From Bacteroidetes bacterium 43-93 (GTDB taxonomy: Bacteria; Bacteroidota; Bacteroidia; Chitinophagales; Chitinophagaceae): a stretch of 64,000 bases of DNA. Below, in pieces: positions 7,065 through 49,128 of this stretch. The DNA is taken from NCBI GenBank assembly GCA_001897855.1, contig MKUO01000017.1, positions 62,001-126,000 on the forward strand. The letters run 5' to 3'. A program made the translations under genes and the position numbers. How positions within the stretch are numbered: the first letter of the stretch is position 1; each line of letters opens with the position of its first letter. Under the pieces are notes generated by a model. That model saw nothing but the letters and a program-made list of their open reading frames with translations, did no database searches and was not told where the DNA came from.

Positions 7065-7173
7065 CGCTTCAATATAGGTTAACACATCATTAAATAATTC
7101 ATATTCGAGATTGTGGCTACTACAATTATCGATCAAGGTTTTTTTGTAATAATATTTTGAGGTCGTTTTTTTT

Positions 7174-8334
7174 ATGAATATTTTTTTAACCGGTGCTACT
7201 GGTCTTGTAGGTGGTGAATTACTCGTTACGCTTTCGCAGCGTAAAGAAGTTAATAAGATATACTGTCTTATCCGCTCTAAATCTGAAGCGGAAGCTACTC
7301 AAAGGTTAGAGAAAGTGTTTGCCCTACACAATGATCGTTTTGACCGTGAAAAGATCGTGCCGGTACTGGGCAACCTGTTTGATGATAACCTTACCAATTC
7401 CCTGATTGAGAATACCACCATATCAGATACGGATGTGATCATCCACTCTGCTGCCAATACGTCCTTCTCACGTGTAAATGATGACCTTGTTGAAAAAGCG
7501 AATATCGGCGGCCTCACCAAGATACTCTTATGGGCAAAGCAATTGCCTCATTTGCAAACCTTCGTGTATATAGGCACGGCTACTATTTGTGGCAAAGACG
7601 TAAAAGACCGTGTTGTAAAAGAAGATGAATCTCCGAACCTGAATGCAACGCACCTGGTAAAGTACACTTATACCAAGATGCGCGGTGAGATCATCATCCG
7701 CGAGCATTTACCTGAAGATAAAATACTGATCACACGCCCGTCTATCATCATGGGTGATAGCAGGCCTATCATACCGCGTTCGCCGGTAATATTGTGGGCG
7801 ATGGCTACCATTAACCATCTGCGCCTGATACCTGTAAATGAACATGCCCAACTGGATATGATACCTGTGAACTATGCAGCAGAGGCGATTGTGAACCTGC
7901 TGTTTGCTAACAGGAAATACCATGTGTATCACATTTCGGCAGGTGAAGCCGGATCTACTACCGCGCTGAAACTTTCCAAAACGTTGGAATCTTACTTTGA
8001 TGATATGCCGCCGTTTAACTTCATCAGCAAATCGCTGCTGAACCAGGTGAAGCATTGGACAAAGGGGAAATTACAACCTGAAAGTGAATTATATACGTAC
8101 AGACAATACCTTGATTATTGGAAGGAAACATTTGAAGACAAGAGTAAGCTGAGGTTGTTGTTCACCGGCCTTGACCCTTACCTGGAGTTTATGGAGCTGG
8201 GACACGTGTTTGATAACAGCCGCCTGCTGGAAGATACCGGCATGGCCAATAGCGAACCGGCAGATGTGTACATGAACAATTCAATGAACTTTGTAGAGAA
8301 AATAGACATACTGGAAGGCGCTATCGATCCATAG
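7174..8334 (+). CDS. SDR-family oxidoreductase, thioester-reductase/fatty acyl-CoA reductase-like
   Basis: A 386-residue extended short-chain dehydrogenase. The N-terminal Rossmann motif TGATGLVGG binds NAD(P); IHSAANTSFS and the catalytic YTYTKMRGE (Tyr-x3-Lys) follow. The pattern of the first 250 residues (IYCLIRSKSEAEATQRL, then TRPSIIMGD) resembles the NAD-binding_4 domain of thioester reductases and fatty acyl-CoA reductases, which reduce a thioester-bound acyl group to an aldehyde or alcohol. No carrier or adenylation domain is fused. The C-terminal 130 residues are less recognisable. It is flanked by its own promoter candidate and terminator. The substrate is unknown. Confidence 0.8.
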   Translation: MNIFLTGATGLVGGELLVTLSQRKEVNKIYCLIRSKSEAEATQRLEKVFALHNDRFDREKIVPVLGNLFDDNLTNSLIENTTISDTDVIIHSAANTSFSRVNDDLVEKANIGGLTKILLWAKQLPHLQTFVYIGTATICGKDVKDRVVKEDESPNLNATHLVKYTYTKMRGEIIIREHLPEDKILITRPSIIMGDSRPIIPRSPVILWAMATINHLRLIPVNEHAQLDMIPVNYAAEAIVNLLFANRKYHVYHISAGEAGSTTALKLSKTLESYFDDMPPFNFISKSLLNQVKHWTKGKLQPESELYTYRQYLDYWKETFEDKSKLRLLFTGLDPYLEFMELGHVFDNSRLLEDTGMANSEPADVYMNNSMNFVEKIDILEGAIDP

Positions 8335-8356
8335 TGGAACGCTTAGTAAAAATATT

Positions 8357-8390
8357 AAAGGATCAGGCCCCGGCATTGATCCTTTTCTTT
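8357..8390 (+). terminator. Rho-independent terminator after the SDR gene
   Basis: AAAGGATCA (8357-8365) pairs with TGATCCTTT (8377-8385) around an 11-base GC-rich loop, followed by TTTTCTTTT-like sequence, 22 bases after the stop codon. Confidence 0.8.
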
Positions 8391-8436
8391 TATAGACCAA
8401 TTAGTTCACTTATAAGATAAACTACCTATAAAACAG

Positions 8437-8444
8437 TAACTTCG
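8437..8444 (+). promoter_or_regulatory. Candidate -7 box for ftsY
   Basis: TAACTTCG, identical to the box upstream of icd at 31588, lies 41 bases before the ftsY ATG. No clear -33 element. Confidence 0.5.
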
Positions 8445-8485
8445 CTGCGCAAGTAAGTTTACCTTTTTACACATTACATAGACTC

Positions 8486-9463
8486 ATGGGGTTATTCGAT
8501 AAACTCTTTAAACGCAATAAAGAACAACAGGAGCAGAAAGAGGCGCTGGATGAAGGCCTGAAAAAAACCAAAGAAGGTTTTTTCTCGCGCATCACCAAAG
8601 CCATTTCAGGTAAAGATAAAGTTGACGAAGAAGTACTCGATCAGCTGGAAGAAGCGCTGATAACTGCCGATGTAGGCCTGGATACTACTGTTGCCATCAT
8701 CAAACGTATTGAGGAAAGAGTTGCCAGGGATAAATTCGTAGGCACATCTGAGCTAAACAATATACTGCAGGAAGAGATCATGGGTATGCTGACGCAGGCC
8801 CCTGACAGTAAGTTTGAAACCTTTGACCTGCCTGCCGATAAGAAACCATATGTACTGCTTGTAGTAGGCGTGAATGGCGTTGGTAAGACCACCACTATAG
8901 GCAAGCTGGCCTATAACTTTAAGAAGAATGGCAAGAAAGTAGTACTGGGTGCTGCAGATACCTTCCGTGCTGCGGCGGTTGACCAACTGACCATCTGGAG
9001 TGAGCGCGTAGGTGTGGACATAGTAAAGAAAGAAATGGGCAGTGATCCAGGCTCTGTAGCATTTGACGCGGTTCAAAGTGCTATGGCTAAGGATGCCGAT
9101 ATTGTGATCATAGACACAGCGGGCCGCCTGCACAATAAAGCCTACCTGATGGATGAGCTGAGCAAGATACGCAGGGTAATATCCAAGAAAATGCCGGATG
9201 CACCGCATGAGGTATTATTGGTATTGGATGGCAGTACAGGGCAAAATGCCATAGAACAAGCCAAACAGTTTACGGCAGCTACAGATGTGACCTCACTAGC
9301 TATTACCAAACTGGATGGTACTGCAAAAGGTGGTGTGGTACTGGCGATAGCTAACCAGTTTAAGATACCGGTAAAGTATATAGGCGTAGGCGAAAAAATG
9401 GAAGACCTGCAGATCTTTAACAAACGTGAGTTTGTAGATAGCCTGTTCAGCCTGGAAGGATAA
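8486..9463 (+). CDS. ftsY: Signal recognition particle receptor FtsY
   Basis: A 325-residue SRP GTPase that docks ribosome-SRP complexes at the inner membrane. A short charged, Lys/Glu-rich N-terminus (1-40) replaces the long acidic A-domain of E. coli FtsY. The N domain is followed by the G domain with [10 protein letters not shown] (from about residue 128), [30 protein letters not shown] and the closing [11 protein letters not shown]. Start ATG 8486 is preceded by a TAACTTCG box. The length is typical of Bacteroidota FtsY. Confidence 0.98.
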
Positions 9464-42728: not shown

Positions 42729-43580
42729 TTACTGCTGCATTGCCGCTTTCTCCTTCATGCGGCGTTTATAGCTATACTTACGGAAGTTGACATCAAACCC
42801 AAATGTACCGATGATCTCACCGAACCAGAAGTGATGATGTATCCTTCCACCATCAGCAACGGTAAGTACATTCAGGTAATTGGCAAACCCGCCCTTACCG
42901 GTGGCCTCGAAGAAGAAGTTACGGAAAGGATATATTCTCAGTCCGCCTTCTATACCTGCTATGTAACCCGCTACATGAAACTTATTATCCAGGTGCTGAC
43001 CCATAAGGAATATGTCCGACTTAGGAACTACAATGCCTGCACCGGCCTTCCAGATTACGGAGGCACGCATAAAATCGCGTTTCTTGTCGTGCAGCAGCTC
43101 TTGCTGGCCTACATAATTAATATGATAGAAATTAGCGCCATTGGTATGTTCCATGTGTACGAAATAAGGATATAGGATAGTATCCTGCCTGTCAAATGTT
43201 TCGCCCCCTATTTGCCCTTTGATATGTACTTTCTGATAATCGGTGACTACATACTTAGCATGGTCGAAGTTGATCTCTATTGCATGGGTATGCTTTTTGT
43301 TTAAGTAGAATCCTATGCGATAAACATTCTGCGGTATGGTGATATCTATAGGATTGGTACGGAAGCCGGAGAAATCGGGTTGGTCGTGCGCCTTTGCTCC
43401 GTAAATGGTGAAGTTGTAATCATTACCATTCACAAAATGCAGATCGCTTTTAGAATAGATATCCCTGTTGTACCCCCATTGAAAATACATACCTGTAAAA
43501 ACAACATTTCGGATCTTCAGCTTAGCTTGTGCGTCGGTGATCATCAAACAAGCCATCAATAGCAGTAAAAAGGAGCGCAT
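42729..43580 (-). CDS. Outer-membrane protein of unknown family, paralogue A
   Basis: A 283-residue protein with signal peptide (1-19) and a beta-rich body: YFQWGYNRDIYSKSDLHFV near the start, HTHAIEINFDHAKYVVTDY in the middle and IHHHFWFGE followed by barrel-like strands. By eye well over half of its residues match the neighbour at 43607, so the two arose by tandem duplication. Conserved segments include SDLHFVNG, LNKKHTHAIEINFDH and GKGGFA-YLNVLTVADGG. I know no family name. The downstream TonB receptor and His-rich gene suggest an envelope metal or nutrient role (inference). Confidence 0.75.
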   Translation of the reverse strand: MRSFLLLLMACLMITDAQAKLKIRNVVFTGMYFQWGYNRDIYSKSDLHFVNGNDYNFTIYGAKAHDQPDFSGFRTNPIDITIPQNVYRIGFYLNKKHTHAIEINFDHAKYVVTDYQKVHIKGQIGGETFDRQDTILYPYFVHMEHTNGANFYHINYVGQQELLHDKKRDFMRASVIWKAGAGIVVPKSDIFLMGQHLDNKFHVAGYIAGIEGGLRIYPFRNFFFEATGKGGFANYLNVLTVADGGRIHHHFWFGEIIGTFGFDVNFRKYSYKRRMKEKAAMQQ

Positions 43581-43606
43581 AGAATTTGTTTAGGGATAAT
43601 GAGTAA

Positions 43607-44455
43607 TTATTCTTCCTTGCCTTTATTCTTGTTGGGTAATTTATAACGGTACTTACCAAAGTTAATATCATAACCAATAGTAAATACGCCTTCTGCATAA
43701 CCAAAGTTGTGATGAATACAGCCACCGTCAGCAACCGTAAGCACATTCAGGTAATCGGCAAAGCCACCTTTGCCGGTTAATTCCAGGAACAGGTTTCTTG
43801 CAGGATAGAACCGAACACCTGCCTCTCCGCTCACTACAAAGCCTGCTACATGGAATACATTATCGAGGTGCTTACCAAACAGGAATATATCGGACTTAGG
43901 CACTACAACACCTGCACCAGCTTTCCATACAGCAGTAAGCCTCGGGCTGTATCTTTTCTTGCTTTTCACTATTTCATACTGCCCTACATAGTTTAGGTGA
44001 AAGAAGTTGGCACCGTTGGTATGCTCCACATGCAGATATTGCGGATTAAGGAGCGTATCCTTCCAGTTGATCGATTGTCCGCCTATTTGCCCGGTGATAT
44101 TATACGGCTGATAATCGGTAACAATATACTTGGTATGATCGAAATTGATCTCTATAGCGTGTGTATGCTTCTTGTTAAGATAAAACCCAATGCGATAATT
44201 ATACTGCGGGATGGAGATATCCAACGGGTTCGTACGCCATCCTGAAAAGTCGGGCTGATCGTTGGACTTTACTTTATGAACCGTGAAATTGTATTGATCG
44301 CCGTTTACAAAGTGCAGGTCGCTTTTGGTATACCCAACACGGTTATACCCCCACTGCAGGTACATACCTGTAAGGATGTGTTTCTTGAACAACTGAGCCT
44401 GAACGGGGAGAGCTGCAAGGGCTGAACCCAAAAGGGTCAACAATATTTTGCGCAT
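43607..44455 (-). CDS. Outer-membrane protein of unknown family, paralogue B
   Basis: A 282-residue paralogue of the gene at 42729 with the same layout: signal peptide (about 1-20), YLQWGYNRVGYTKSDLHFV, HTHAIEINFDHTKYIVTDY, VWKAGAGVVVPKSDIFLFG, and GCIHHNFGYAEG. Paralogue A has IHHHF where this copy has IHHNF; the N- and C-termini diverge most. It is the first gene of the pair, with a TAATTTTG box 22 bases upstream; paralogue A follows after 26 bases. Confidence 0.75.
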   Translation of the reverse strand: MRKILLTLLGSALAALPVQAQLFKKHILTGMYLQWGYNRVGYTKSDLHFVNGDQYNFTVHKVKSNDQPDFSGWRTNPLDISIPQYNYRIGFYLNKKHTHAIEINFDHTKYIVTDYQPYNITGQIGGQSINWKDTLLNPQYLHVEHTNGANFFHLNYVGQYEIVKSKKRYSPRLTAVWKAGAGVVVPKSDIFLFGKHLDNVFHVAGFVVSGEAGVRFYPARNLFLELTGKGGFADYLNVLTVADGGCIHHNFGYAEGVFTIGYDINFGKYRYKLPNKNKGKEE

Positions 44456-45832: not shown

Positions 45833-46195
45833 ATGAGTAAGAAGACAGTAATATTAGGCGCATCAGAAAACCCATCCCGATATAGCTACCTGGCTTTAAA
45901 CCGCCTGAGAAGCAAAGGACATCCCGTAATTGCCATTGGGAACCGGGCAGGACAAGTTGGCGATACGCCTATTATTACCGAACACCCAGAAATGGATGAT
46001 GTTGATACGGTTACCCTTTACCTGAACCCTACCAATCAGAAACCATATTACGATTATATCCTTTCTTTAAAACCAAAGCGTGTAATCTTTAACCCCGGCA
46101 CAGAAAACCCGGAGCTGGAACGCATGGTAGAGGGACAAGGTGGCGATGCAATGGAAGCATGTACACTTGTGTTGCTGAGTACGGGACAGTACTAA
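45833..46195 (+). CDS. CoA-binding domain protein (YccU-like)
   Basis: A 120-residue single Rossmann-like CoA-binding domain: VILGASENPSRYSYLALNRL at the N-terminus and PKRVIFNPGTENPELE. Proteins of this size bind CoA in crystal structures but have no settled reaction. The start is fixed by the family N-terminus, which makes the four-base distance to the -7 box notable. It stands alone, divergent from thiolase; a functional link to CoA metabolism is plausible but unproven. Confidence 0.9.
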   Translation: MSKKTVILGASENPSRYSYLALNRLRSKGHPVIAIGNRAGQVGDTPIITEHPEMDDVDTVTLYLNPTNQKPYYDYILSLKPKRVIFNPGTENPELERMVEGQGGDAMEACTLVLLSTGQY

Positions 46196-46277: not shown

Positions 46278-46982
46278 ATGAGTAAGCCGATACAGATATC
46301 CATCCCCCATCCTTGCCACGAGGATTGGAACAAGATGACACCAATCGAGCGGGGCAGGTTCTGTAACAACTGTCAAAAGGCGGTTATAGACTTCAGAGCT
46401 TACAGCGATACACAGTTATACAATTATTTGCAGCAACACAAAGGAGTCTCTATATGCGGCAGGGTATATTCCTCGCAACTTAATAGGAGCATTCACATTC
46501 CACATCAGCCGCATAGCCGACTGTACTTATACTTTCTGGGACTTAGCCTGATACTAGTATTCTCCTCAATACCAAACAATCAAATCTTTGCGCAAAAGCC
46601 CGTTTCTGTTCTGACAAAAAAACTGGATCAACAGACCCAAAACAAAGAATCTAAATCCCACCTTGTTGTTACGATAAAAGATGAAACCTTTCGACCTGTA
46701 CCTAATGCTATATACACGGTTACCCGATATAAACAAATAACTACTTCCGGACGAACAGATAGTACCGGGATGTTCGAAATTACGGACCCTTCTCCGGGAG
46801 TTTATTTAGTTAACATTCAAGCCTGGGGGCTCGAGTTTTCAAGAAGCTTACATTACACTGCAGCATATAACAATCATTTTGATATCATACTTGATGATTT
46901 GTTTGGGGAAGATTTAGGTAGGATCGTAATAATGCCCGATGCAAGCACAACAAACACCTTTATCACAAAGCCTCAAAAATAA
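46278..46982 (+). CDS. Cys4-TM-carboxypeptidase-like protein, paralogue 1
   Basis: A 234-residue protein of a family I do not know by name. N-terminal domain (1-75): IQISIPHPCHEDWNKMTP, GRFCNNCQKAV and ICGRVY, with C13, C29, C32 and C60 in a zinc-ribbon-like spacing. One membrane helix (about 84-101, ending near FAQ) follows. The outer part (about 125-215) is a carboxypeptidase-regulatory/SdrD-like beta-sandwich (TSGRTDSTGMFEITDPSPG). ATG 46278 begins the conserved IQISIP region; an in-frame GTG at 46248 is less likely. It shares the Cys domain with the next two genes and the late motif with the fourth (48652). Confidence 0.8.
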   Translation: MSKPIQISIPHPCHEDWNKMTPIERGRFCNNCQKAVIDFRAYSDTQLYNYLQQHKGVSICGRVYSSQLNRSIHIPHQPHSRLYLYFLGLSLILVFSSIPNNQIFAQKPVSVLTKKLDQQTQNKESKSHLVVTIKDETFRPVPNAIYTVTRYKQITTSGRTDSTGMFEITDPSPGVYLVNIQAWGLEFSRSLHYTAAYNNHFDIILDDLFGEDLGRIVIMPDASTTNTFITKPQK

Positions 46983-46990
46983 CTATTCCT

Positions 46991-47809
46991 ATGCTCAAGA
47001 ACCCATCGATACAGATATCCATCCCCAATCCCTGCCACGAGGATTGGAATAAGATGACACCGGTGGAACAAGGCAGGTTTTGCAGCCATTGCCAAAAGGT
47101 AGTGACCGATTTTACCAACTACACCGATGCACAGCTATATAGCTTCTTCAGCAAGCGGACAGAAGAGATATGCGGTAGATTTTACAATCATCAACTCAAC
47201 AGGAAAATACACATACCCCCACAGCCGCATAGCAGGCTGTACCGATACTTTATTGGATTGGGGCTTACACTGCTATTTACACATATCCCTGAAACACACT
47301 CACGGGCGCAAACTCCTTATACCTACTCCAACCCATACGATACTGACAATACTACAGATGATAGCACAGATAATAAAGCTTTTATTAAGGGAAAGGTAAT
47401 TGACGAGCACAAGGAACCAATGATTGGCGCTGTGGTACAGGCTAGTATTGACAACAAACCTGTTGGTGGATGTATTACTGACGAGCGGGGCAATTATTCT
47501 ATACCTGTCATAACCAGTACACCTGTACGTTGCAAGGTTGTGTTTAAATACTCATCTTACGTCCCCAAGACGGTAGAAGATATCCTTGTTAGCCCCGGAC
47601 AAACCGTGACAGTAAATGCACGAATGAAACTAGACACCACCGGCTTAAATGACGTTGCGGTATTTAGCGGAGGTAAAGTTCCACTTCTGCCGGACACTAC
47701 AAGACTCAACATTCCCCGTGATGACACAGCCCACGTGCCATTAATAGACCCTTTTGAACCCAATAAGACAATTATCGACAGCAAGGAAATAGAACATAGA
47801 ACGCATTAA
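46991..47809 (+). CDS. Cys4-TM-carboxypeptidase-like protein, paralogue 2
   Basis: A 272-residue paralogue of the preceding gene, eight bases after it. Cys at 15, 31, 34 and 61 (C-x15-C-x2-C-x26-C) lie in PCHEDWNKMTP, GRFCSHCQKVVTDFTNYTDA and EICGRFYNHQLN. A membrane helix (YRYFIGLGLTLLF) and a short linker (SRAQ) follow. The outer domain reads GKVIDEHKEPMIGAVV then TDERGNYSIPV, a carboxypeptidase-regulatory-like (TonB-receptor N-domain) sandwich. The C-terminal tail LIDPFEPNK and KEIEH is shared with paralogue 3. Confidence 0.82.
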   Translation: MLKNPSIQISIPNPCHEDWNKMTPVEQGRFCSHCQKVVTDFTNYTDAQLYSFFSKRTEEICGRFYNHQLNRKIHIPPQPHSRLYRYFIGLGLTLLFTHIPETHSRAQTPYTYSNPYDTDNTTDDSTDNKAFIKGKVIDEHKEPMIGAVVQASIDNKPVGGCITDERGNYSIPVITSTPVRCKVVFKYSSYVPKTVEDILVSPGQTVTVNARMKLDTTGLNDVAVFSGGKVPLLPDTTRLNIPRDDTAHVPLIDPFEPNKTIIDSKEIEHRTH

Positions 47810-47821
47810 GTGCAGAACGCA

Positions 47822-48640
47822 ATGAAGATATCTAAAGCCATACAAATATCCATTCCCAATCCCTGTCATGAGGACTGGAACAAGATGACACCGGCAGAGC
47901 AAGGCAGGTTTTGCAGCCAGTGCCAAAAAGTAGTAACTGATTTTACCAACTATACCGATGCACAGCTCTACCAATTCTTTAGCGACCGTAACAAGCAAGT
48001 TTGTGGCAGGTTTTATAATCACCAACTTAACACGTCCATATCAATACCACCACAACCACATAGCAGGCTGTATAGATACTTTATTGGTTTGGGGCTTACT
48101 TTAATATTTACGCAATTGCCAGAGACAGGGTTAAGGGCACAAACACCGTATGCACAAGTAGCCCTCCAAAGTGATAAAAAAAACAAGGACGAAAATGATA
48201 CTGCCATAATTATTAATGGAAAAGTAATTGACGAACTGAAAGAACCAATGTTTGGAGCAATTGTAGCCGCGTATTGCAATGGTACAATGGTGGCAGGTGC
48301 TGTAACCGATTACGATGGCAATTATAAGTTATACATCTATAACAGCTCACCGAAAAAATATGATGTTGTGCTAAAGCATACAGGTTATAAATCTAAAAAT
48401 GTGCAAGATTTGAGTTTAAGCCCAGGTACTGCAATTGTTATTGATGTCCAGATGCAAACAGATACTTTTATAAACAAAAATGTCATCATTACCACCGGCC
48501 TACCAATAATAATAATGCCCGTAGAACCTAAAAGTTCTATTATCATGCGTGATAGCAAAAATCAGCCACCACTGGTCGATCCTTTTGAGCCTAACAAGAA
48601 AGCAATAACTGATAAAGAGATAGAACACAACGCACATTAA
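47822..48640 (+). CDS. Cys4-TM-carboxypeptidase-like protein, paralogue 3
   Basis: A 272-residue paralogue, closest to paralogue 2. The Cys pattern is the same (C15, C31, C34, C61): PCHEDWNKMTP, GRFCSQCQKVVTDF and VCGRFYNHQLN. Membrane helix, GKVIDELKEPMFGAIV and TDYDGNYKLYIY follow, and the tail LVDPFEPNKK with DKEIEH. ATG 47822 is chosen; GTG 47810 would add four residues. The conserved tail suggests a contact site or sorting signal outside the membrane. Confidence 0.82.
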   Translation: MKISKAIQISIPNPCHEDWNKMTPAEQGRFCSQCQKVVTDFTNYTDAQLYQFFSDRNKQVCGRFYNHQLNTSISIPPQPHSRLYRYFIGLGLTLIFTQLPETGLRAQTPYAQVALQSDKKNKDENDTAIIINGKVIDELKEPMFGAIVAAYCNGTMVAGAVTDYDGNYKLYIYNSSPKKYDVVLKHTGYKSKNVQDLSLSPGTAIVIDVQMQTDTFINKNVIITTGLPIIIMPVEPKSSIIMRDSKNQPPLVDPFEPNKKAITDKEIEHNAH

Positions 48641-48651
48641 TTGGCCAAGTC

Positions 48652-49128
48652 ATGAAGAAATCAAAACCGACTGAGTTGATGTTTACTTTTTTTCTACTTA
48701 ACCTGGCATTATTATTCTTCGTAAGTAGTACCATACCTGCTTTTGCCCGAAAAAAGAACAACAAAAGCACGCGCATTGTTAGTATATCTATAGCCTTCGG
48801 AGACAATACTCCTGCATCTGACCTGAAGCTTATAATAACAAAGGATAATAAACTTTTTGCCTCCGGCAGAACCAACGGAAATGGAATATTTAACTTGCAT
48901 GACCCGTCAAGTGGCACTTACCTGATTGAGCAAAAAGACCCTGATTTTGTTGGTTACTTTGATCCATTCTTTAGGTTGGTGGTAACCGACACAACGAAAA
49001 ACGCAATATTCTACCTACAGCCGTTATTTGAATTACCGGCGCATTTGGTGAAACCAAATTGTATAGACAGCGATTTGATATTTAAAAAAAGAAAGATCCC
49101 GGCTTATCCAATAGCAGAAAAACACTAA
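48652..49128 (+). CDS. Signal-anchored carboxypeptidase-like protein without Cys domain (paralogue 4)
   Basis: A 158-residue protein, 11 bases after paralogue 3. A hydrophobic N-terminus (about 9-33) acts as signal or anchor, with no Cys4 domain. The body has FASGRTNGNGIFNLHDPSSG, which matches paralogue 1's SGRTDSTGMFEITDPSPG, so it is a shortened relative of that outer domain. The final four bases overlap the convergent anmK gene. Function unknown; the four genes probably form one transcript. Confidence 0.72.
   Translation: MKKSKPTELMFTFFLLNLALLFFVSSTIPAFARKKNNKSTRIVSISIAFGDNTPASDLKLIITKDNKLFASGRTNGNGIFNLHDPSSGTYLIEQKDPDFVGYFDPFFRLVVTDTTKNAIFYLQPLFELPAHLVKPNCIDSDLIFKKRKIPAYPIAEKH

Follow-up and report, generated by a model that had tools for sequence, protein, structure and literature searches.

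A 64,000-nucleotide stretch of the Bacteroidetes bacterium 43-93 assembly (contig MKUO01000017.1, positions 62,001 to 126,000; here called the window) contains an array of four plus-strand genes at 46278-46982, 46991-47809, 47822-48640, and 48652-49128, whose open reading frames (ORFs) we confirmed. We propose that genes 1 to 3 of this array probably encode three-part pre-proteins, in which a four-cysteine (Cys4) domain lies ahead of a putative cleavable signal peptide and may control the export of the cargo that follows, in genes 2 and 3 a TonB-interface fragment. A preliminary description of the same DNA had recognized three adjacent genes with a shared C-x15-C-x2-C-x26/27-C N-terminal domain, which the ORFs, the cysteine spacing, and the profile scores bore out, and had joined this domain to a carboxypeptidase-regulatory-like outer domain by a membrane helix.

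The Cys4 domain is about 68 residues long and stands at the N terminus of each product. Read from the sequence, the spacing is C-x15-C-x2-C-x27-C in gene 1 (46278-46502; Cys 13, 29, 32, and 60) and C-x15-C-x2-C-x26-C in gene 2 (46991-47206) and gene 3 (47822-48037), both with Cys 15, 31, 34, and 61; AF2 (AlphaFold2) models were also available for the gene 3 copy. A profile built from 60 domains, the three window copies included, scored these copies at E values of 1e-31 to 1e-34, so the domain is not a chance pattern. Profile searches found no further copy in the same genome and located the domain in 43 of the 296 Bacteroidota genomes sampled; at least 39 of the 73 sampled genomes of its class carry it, and 9 of 14 other genomes of its own genus had a match, interrupted in some by in-frame stops. 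Only the four cysteines (C15, C31, C34, and C61) were invariant columns among 150 domains. The four were complete in 70 of the 73 members of the profile-found set, the three misses being one degenerate protein of small size, one truncated where its locus ends, and one frame-shifted copy. No family in Pfam, NCBIfam, or PDB matched the domain when the window proteins and the 150-member set were searched, in line with the preliminary description, which knew of no account of this architecture, and we found no published account of the domain or the architecture in the titles and abstracts of open-licence papers. The domain is probably cytosolic and zinc bound.

Two further proteins touch on the reach of the domain. 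A 107-residue protein from a Calothrix plasmid (AP018211.1; L153:4947-5270) carries a related Cys4 domain plus an additional DGTM..C motif but lacks a hydrophobic segment, and it shares this motif with two relatives, L143 and L185, which suggests a larger family not confined to Bacteroidota. At L031:4301-5998, two N-terminal domains lie in one 566-residue frame, apparently two tandem genes fused by stop loss.

Between the Cys4 domain and a short hydrophobic core, the products of genes 1 to 3 have a linker that is basic or His rich. Linker and signal-peptide-like segment together span 46503-46592 in gene 1, 47207-47308 in gene 2, and 48038-48139 in gene 3 and end in ..NNQIFA↓Q, ..THSRA↓Q, and ..TGLRA↓Q, respectively, where the arrow marks the putative cleavage site; the gene 2 end aligns opposite ..TAVFA↓Q of a TonB-dependent receptor from the same genome, and the gene 3 end was placed from its sequence and by alignment. 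Of the 150 relatives, 89 have [ASG]Q after the hydrophobic core, where 12.9 would be expected from these proteins, and 65 have AQ there (4.1 expected); a lipobox is present in 49 against 0.4 expected, with the lipobox counts weighted to Flavobacterium. The median net charge preceding the core is +2. The Cys4 domain occupies a place in which a signal peptide ordinarily has no more than a few charged residues. A type IX tail (Por_Secre_tail; TIGR04183/PF18962) was present on 26 of the 150 relatives, and cargo with such a tail has to leave the inner membrane; Pfam and NCBIfam searches showed no such sorting domain in the window proteins.

Neighboring genes gave a view of the segment without the domain. 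A comparison covering 148 loci yielded 27 rows of neighboring ORFs that resemble an N-domain protein. Eleven of these rows, which represent ten genes since one lies in two overlapping loci, have an alignable signal and cargo and lack the Cys domain. The remaining rows were three N-domain genes missed by gene picking, one gene that has lost most of the domain, two fragments, five ORFs sharing an N-terminal-extension (NTE)-like stretch, and five sharing only a C-terminal sorting-tail stretch. The domain-free protein P0008 aligns from its residue two with residues 78 to 272 of its neighbor, with the lipid-bearing cysteine in register, and at L042:5450-5998 most of the Cys domain is lost with the signal and a TonB_C-like cargo still in frame. 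Since signal and cargo are retained in domain-free neighbors, the Cys domain behaves as an optional module placed before an otherwise normal export signal. Gene 4 of the array (48652-49128) is likewise without a Cys domain and has by eye an ordinary signal peptide (..PAFA↓R); its outer part, which the preliminary description had noted, aligns with the gene 1 outer part at 33% identity over 63 amino acids (E value, 6e-8) and has no significant CarboxypepD_reg match (Pfam; E value, 0.27). Together, the signal-peptide features, the type IX tails, the lipoprotein cysteines, and the domain-free paralogues speak against a permanent membrane-spanning helix that would couple a sensor to the outer domain, and the segment instead looks like a cleavable signal peptide.

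The cargo families of the 150 relatives in Pfam were CarbopepD_reg_2 (78 proteins), TonB_C (28), Por_Secre_tail (26), and Plug (2). PF13715/PF13620, which mark the NTE domain of SusC-type receptors, passed the Pfam cutoffs in gene 2 (47384-47662, a stretch that ends in a Ton-box-like LNDVAV) and gene 3 (48212-48487). In gene 1, where the exported part and stop occupy 46593-46982, CarboxypepD_reg scored 27.8 bits against a cutoff of 32.3, and the carboxypeptidase-regulatory-like outer domain assigned to all three therefore holds for genes 2 and 3 and falls below threshold in gene 1. Residues 132 to 245 of the gene 2 product are 49% identical over 114 amino acids (E value, 1e-27) to the own-genome TonB-dependent receptor, and the gene 3 product is 37% identical to it over 101 amino acids; residues 129 to 208 of the latter were also matched by a solved fragment of a SusC homologue (E value, 3e-4). 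This receptor (L208:7120-10905) is a 1,262-residue frame with an NTE, a Plug, and a barrel by Pfam and was matched by 12 of 180 N-domain frames at E values up to 1e-5, with two of the twelve being one gene. The receptor match replaces the generic sandwich of the preliminary description with a specific origin for the outer parts of genes 2 and 3.

The C-terminal ends of these two products fit the same comparison. The gene 2 tail, NKTIIDSKEIEHRTH (47762-47806), and the gene 3 tail, NKKAITDKEIEHNAH (48593-48637), have LxDPFEPNK and KEIEH in common, as noted previously. In a multiple alignment the KEIEH tail is paired with the residues that open the Plug match of the receptor (VIQSEDIEKMA), although the pairwise gene 2 match stops before the tail; by alignment, the gene 3 tail is likewise plug-start-like. 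Three relatives (L163, L164, and L165) can be aligned as far as residue 151 of the receptor (..SEDIEKMA) and terminate one residue later; the receptor's Plug match extends from 140 to 227, which puts their ends about 12 residues inside the plug. With an expression written after the tails had been seen, plug-start-like tail ends were found in 4 of 150 proteins against 0.37 expected from shuffled sequences and, with the expression again post hoc, in 5 of 19 relatives that did not belong to the discovery set, against 0.05. One other relative, L095, matches the plug part of the receptor instead (E value, 3e-6). At the Ton-box position, LNDVAV of gene 2 aligns with LNEVAV of the receptor, and the gene 3 sequence is degenerate. 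A strict Ton-box-like motif was absent from the window genes; a looser one, chosen post hoc, occurred in 50 of the 150 proteins (5.2 after shuffling) and in 4 of 261 neighbors (10.5 after shuffling). Pfam found no Plug or barrel match in the products of genes 1 to 3, which are 234 to 272 amino acids long, and because none of the 150 members exceeds 426 amino acids, except one double fusion, there is no room for a barrel. By these homologies, what genes 2 and 3 would export corresponds to the front end of a TonB-dependent receptor, with no barrel and with the plug missing beyond its first residues.

These features lead us to a model in which each pre-protein would consist of a Cys4 domain (about 68 residues, folded, cytosolic, and probably holding one zinc ion), a cleavable Sec signal peptide (of the signal peptidase I type in the window and a lipoprotein signal in Flavobacterium-type relatives), and an exported cargo, which in genes 2 and 3 would be a periplasmic NTE, a Ton-box-like strand, and a short plug-start-like tail. 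The Cys4 domain would remain in the cytosol as the signal peptide enters the translocon and would bind a conserved cytosolic or inner-membrane partner, so setting the timing or place of export, much as others have proposed for the extended signal peptide region (ESPR) of autotransporters. Signal peptidase would then cut off the Cys4 domain and free the cargo, which might act at the TonB/receptor interface, for example by occupying TonB or an NTE partner. The sequences themselves show that the domain is conserved, N-terminal, and lost as a module, that a signal-like segment follows it, and that the cargo has receptor homology; in this scheme we infer the cleavage, the metal, the partner, and the effects on export and on TonB. 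If the Cys4 domain does control export, a folded metal site would be intervening in Sec-dependent secretion, which would be unusual, and the TonB-interface cargo would help to learn how Bacteroidota control uptake through TonB-dependent receptors and what the NTE domain does. A bolder version, which we put forward tentatively as a possibility, is that a folded, metal-binding cytosolic pre-signal domain, gated by metal or redox state, controls the release of both barrel-less receptor fronts and TonB C-terminal domains into the envelope. As natural competitors, the released pieces could then adjust or block uptake that depends on TonB, and the domain, which occurs in many genera of one bacterial class, would stand for a kind of export control not seen before.

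Several observations weigh against the three-part pre-protein model. The cargo of gene 1 has only weak matches to own-genome receptors (E values of 0.002 for L202 and 0.010 for L197), and in independent close relatives the looser Ton-box-like motif is not clearly enriched (2 of 18 against 0.47 expected, with a maximum of 3). The preliminary description had pointed to the gene neighborhoods, and the families of 124 neighbor proteins were scanned, but no conserved neighbor that would name a partner emerged. The collection began with 80 loci picked out by CHEDWNKM-type patterns, and the weighting of the lipobox counts belongs here as well. For the signal peptide itself, gene 3 falls into the class "other" under a stricter A-x-A rule, genes 3 and 1 have Leu and Ile, respectively, at -3, and a lipobox and a type IX tail occur together in 5 of the 150 proteins by regular expression, a poor fit that is unexplained. 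Neither [ASG]Q nor a lipobox was found in 18 of the 150, among them L001:4812, which is close to gene 1, and L002 and L004, which are close to the window family, and in L143 and L185, members of a distant subfamily, the hydrophobic segment has no evident cleavage site. The unmarked proteins and the distant subfamily also favor the idea that the segment is an uncleaved signal anchor, making a bitopic inner-membrane protein in which a cytosolic Cys4 metal or redox sensor is coupled to a periplasmic domain. TonB itself has a membrane anchor of this kind, and the positive charge before the core fits the required N-in orientation. However, an anchor is hard to square with the type IX tails, the lipoboxes, the paralogues that keep an alignable signal and cargo with no cytosolic domain, and the alignment of the segment with a receptor signal peptide, and we regard it as rather unlikely.

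The divergence within the arrays bears on two further explanations. In 40 adjacent tandem pairs, the median identity was 72% for the N-domain and 30% for the cargo, and the N-domain was the more similar part in 40 of 40, which upholds the swapping of outer domains suggested earlier. The near-identical DNA and recent copying suggested with it did not survive: across the Cys domain, genes 2 and 3 are 75% identical in DNA; the proportion of synonymous differences (pS) there is 0.72, near saturation, and the nonsynonymous divergence (dN) is 0.16, versus 0.60 in the cargo. The gene 2 and 3 copies are old, because 72% of the synonymous sites of the domain differ, and on these sequence comparisons their similarity is old and kept by selection on the protein. 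Gene 3 (47822-48640) and L001:6001-6816, apparent orthologues, have a synonymous divergence of 1.7 in the domain versus 0.5 in the cargo, calculated from few sites, and this higher divergence may be a trace of domain exchange between paralogues. Conservation of the domain above the cargo in every tandem pair, together with the related domain that stands alone with no membrane segment in the Calothrix plasmid protein, would also suit a reporter that acts after cleavage, in which the Cys4 domain and signal-peptide remnant are released and tell the cytosol that export has occurred; a regulatory partner was not seen, however, with sigma-70 regions in just 4 of the 124 neighbor proteins, and we consider such a role doubtful. 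That the genes are decaying tandem duplicates of receptor fragments with little function might be read from their patchy presence (20 of 59 relatives, own genome included) and from the in-frame stops in the G298, G305, and G309 copies, but a dN of 0.16 at near-saturated synonymous sites and four cysteines invariant in 150 sequences make this very improbable.

The surroundings of the genes add a few observations. The array is preceded on the same strand by a gene for a CoA-binding protein (45833-46195), whose family was matched by 4 of the 124 scanned neighbor proteins. On the minus strand of the window, 42729-44455 holds two adjacent similar genes (283 and 282 amino acids) that by eye resemble outer-membrane beta-barrel paralogues. 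N-domain genes in L020, L045, L025, L013, and L121 adjoin proteins of 630 to 670 residues that share a carboxypeptidase-regulatory-like stretch with the N-domain genes; the L020 neighbor (7066-8991) is a VWA/YfbK-type protein, a type seen in 4 of the 124 scanned neighbors. Directly after the own-genome receptor, L208:10943-14929 encodes a 1,328-residue protein with no Pfam match up to an E value of 1e-4.

We compared the proposed three-part pre-proteins with known systems. Zinc-binding anti-sigma factors (ZAS) and FecR-type anti-sigma factors have a cytosolic N-terminal domain, one hydrophobic segment, and a periplasmic part, and the zinc motif of the former is H-x3-C-x2-C. Window genes 1 to 3 have the same order of parts but differ in their Cys spacing, in matching no such family in Pfam, and in having no regular sigma gene beside them; none was recognized next to the window genes. 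We rejected a ZAS identity for the Cys4 domain, in which C15, C31, C34, and C61 are the only invariant residues and for which no such Pfam match appeared up to an E value of 1. TonB (PF03544) is a second point of likeness, through the TonB_C domain of 28 of the 150 relatives and through an Aureibacter member annotated "energy transducer TonB"; the genome that bears the array itself gave 8 matches to the TonB C-terminal domain. Unlike TonB, the Flavobacterium type has a lipobox and not a membrane anchor, and by Pfam the window proteins lack TonB_C.

The SusC-type receptors are closer to the cargo. Excerpts of one report on the SusC Bt1763 describe a PF13715 domain that precedes the Ton box VDEVVV, give its function as unknown, and state that in its absence growth on levan could not be detected after 24 h (PMC7782687). 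The cargo of genes 2 and 3 shares homology with the NTE of such receptors and the linker behind it; in contrast to the receptors, genes 2 and 3 have no barrel, a plug limited to its first residues, and a Cys4 domain before the signal peptide. Among the systems compared, the nearest to the Cys4 domain is ESPR (PF13018), also a pre-signal extension, which in the excerpted source is a 25-residue extension of type 5 secretion proteins proposed to slow export, on mixed evidence (PMC8151025). No ESPR match was found by Pfam in the window proteins or, in the relatives, among the families listed (the best 25 of 36 and 25 of 27). The differences are of size and setting, with 25 residues in ESPR versus a predicted folded domain of about 68 residues with four invariant cysteines here, borne by Bacteroidota proteins on TonB-interface cargo.
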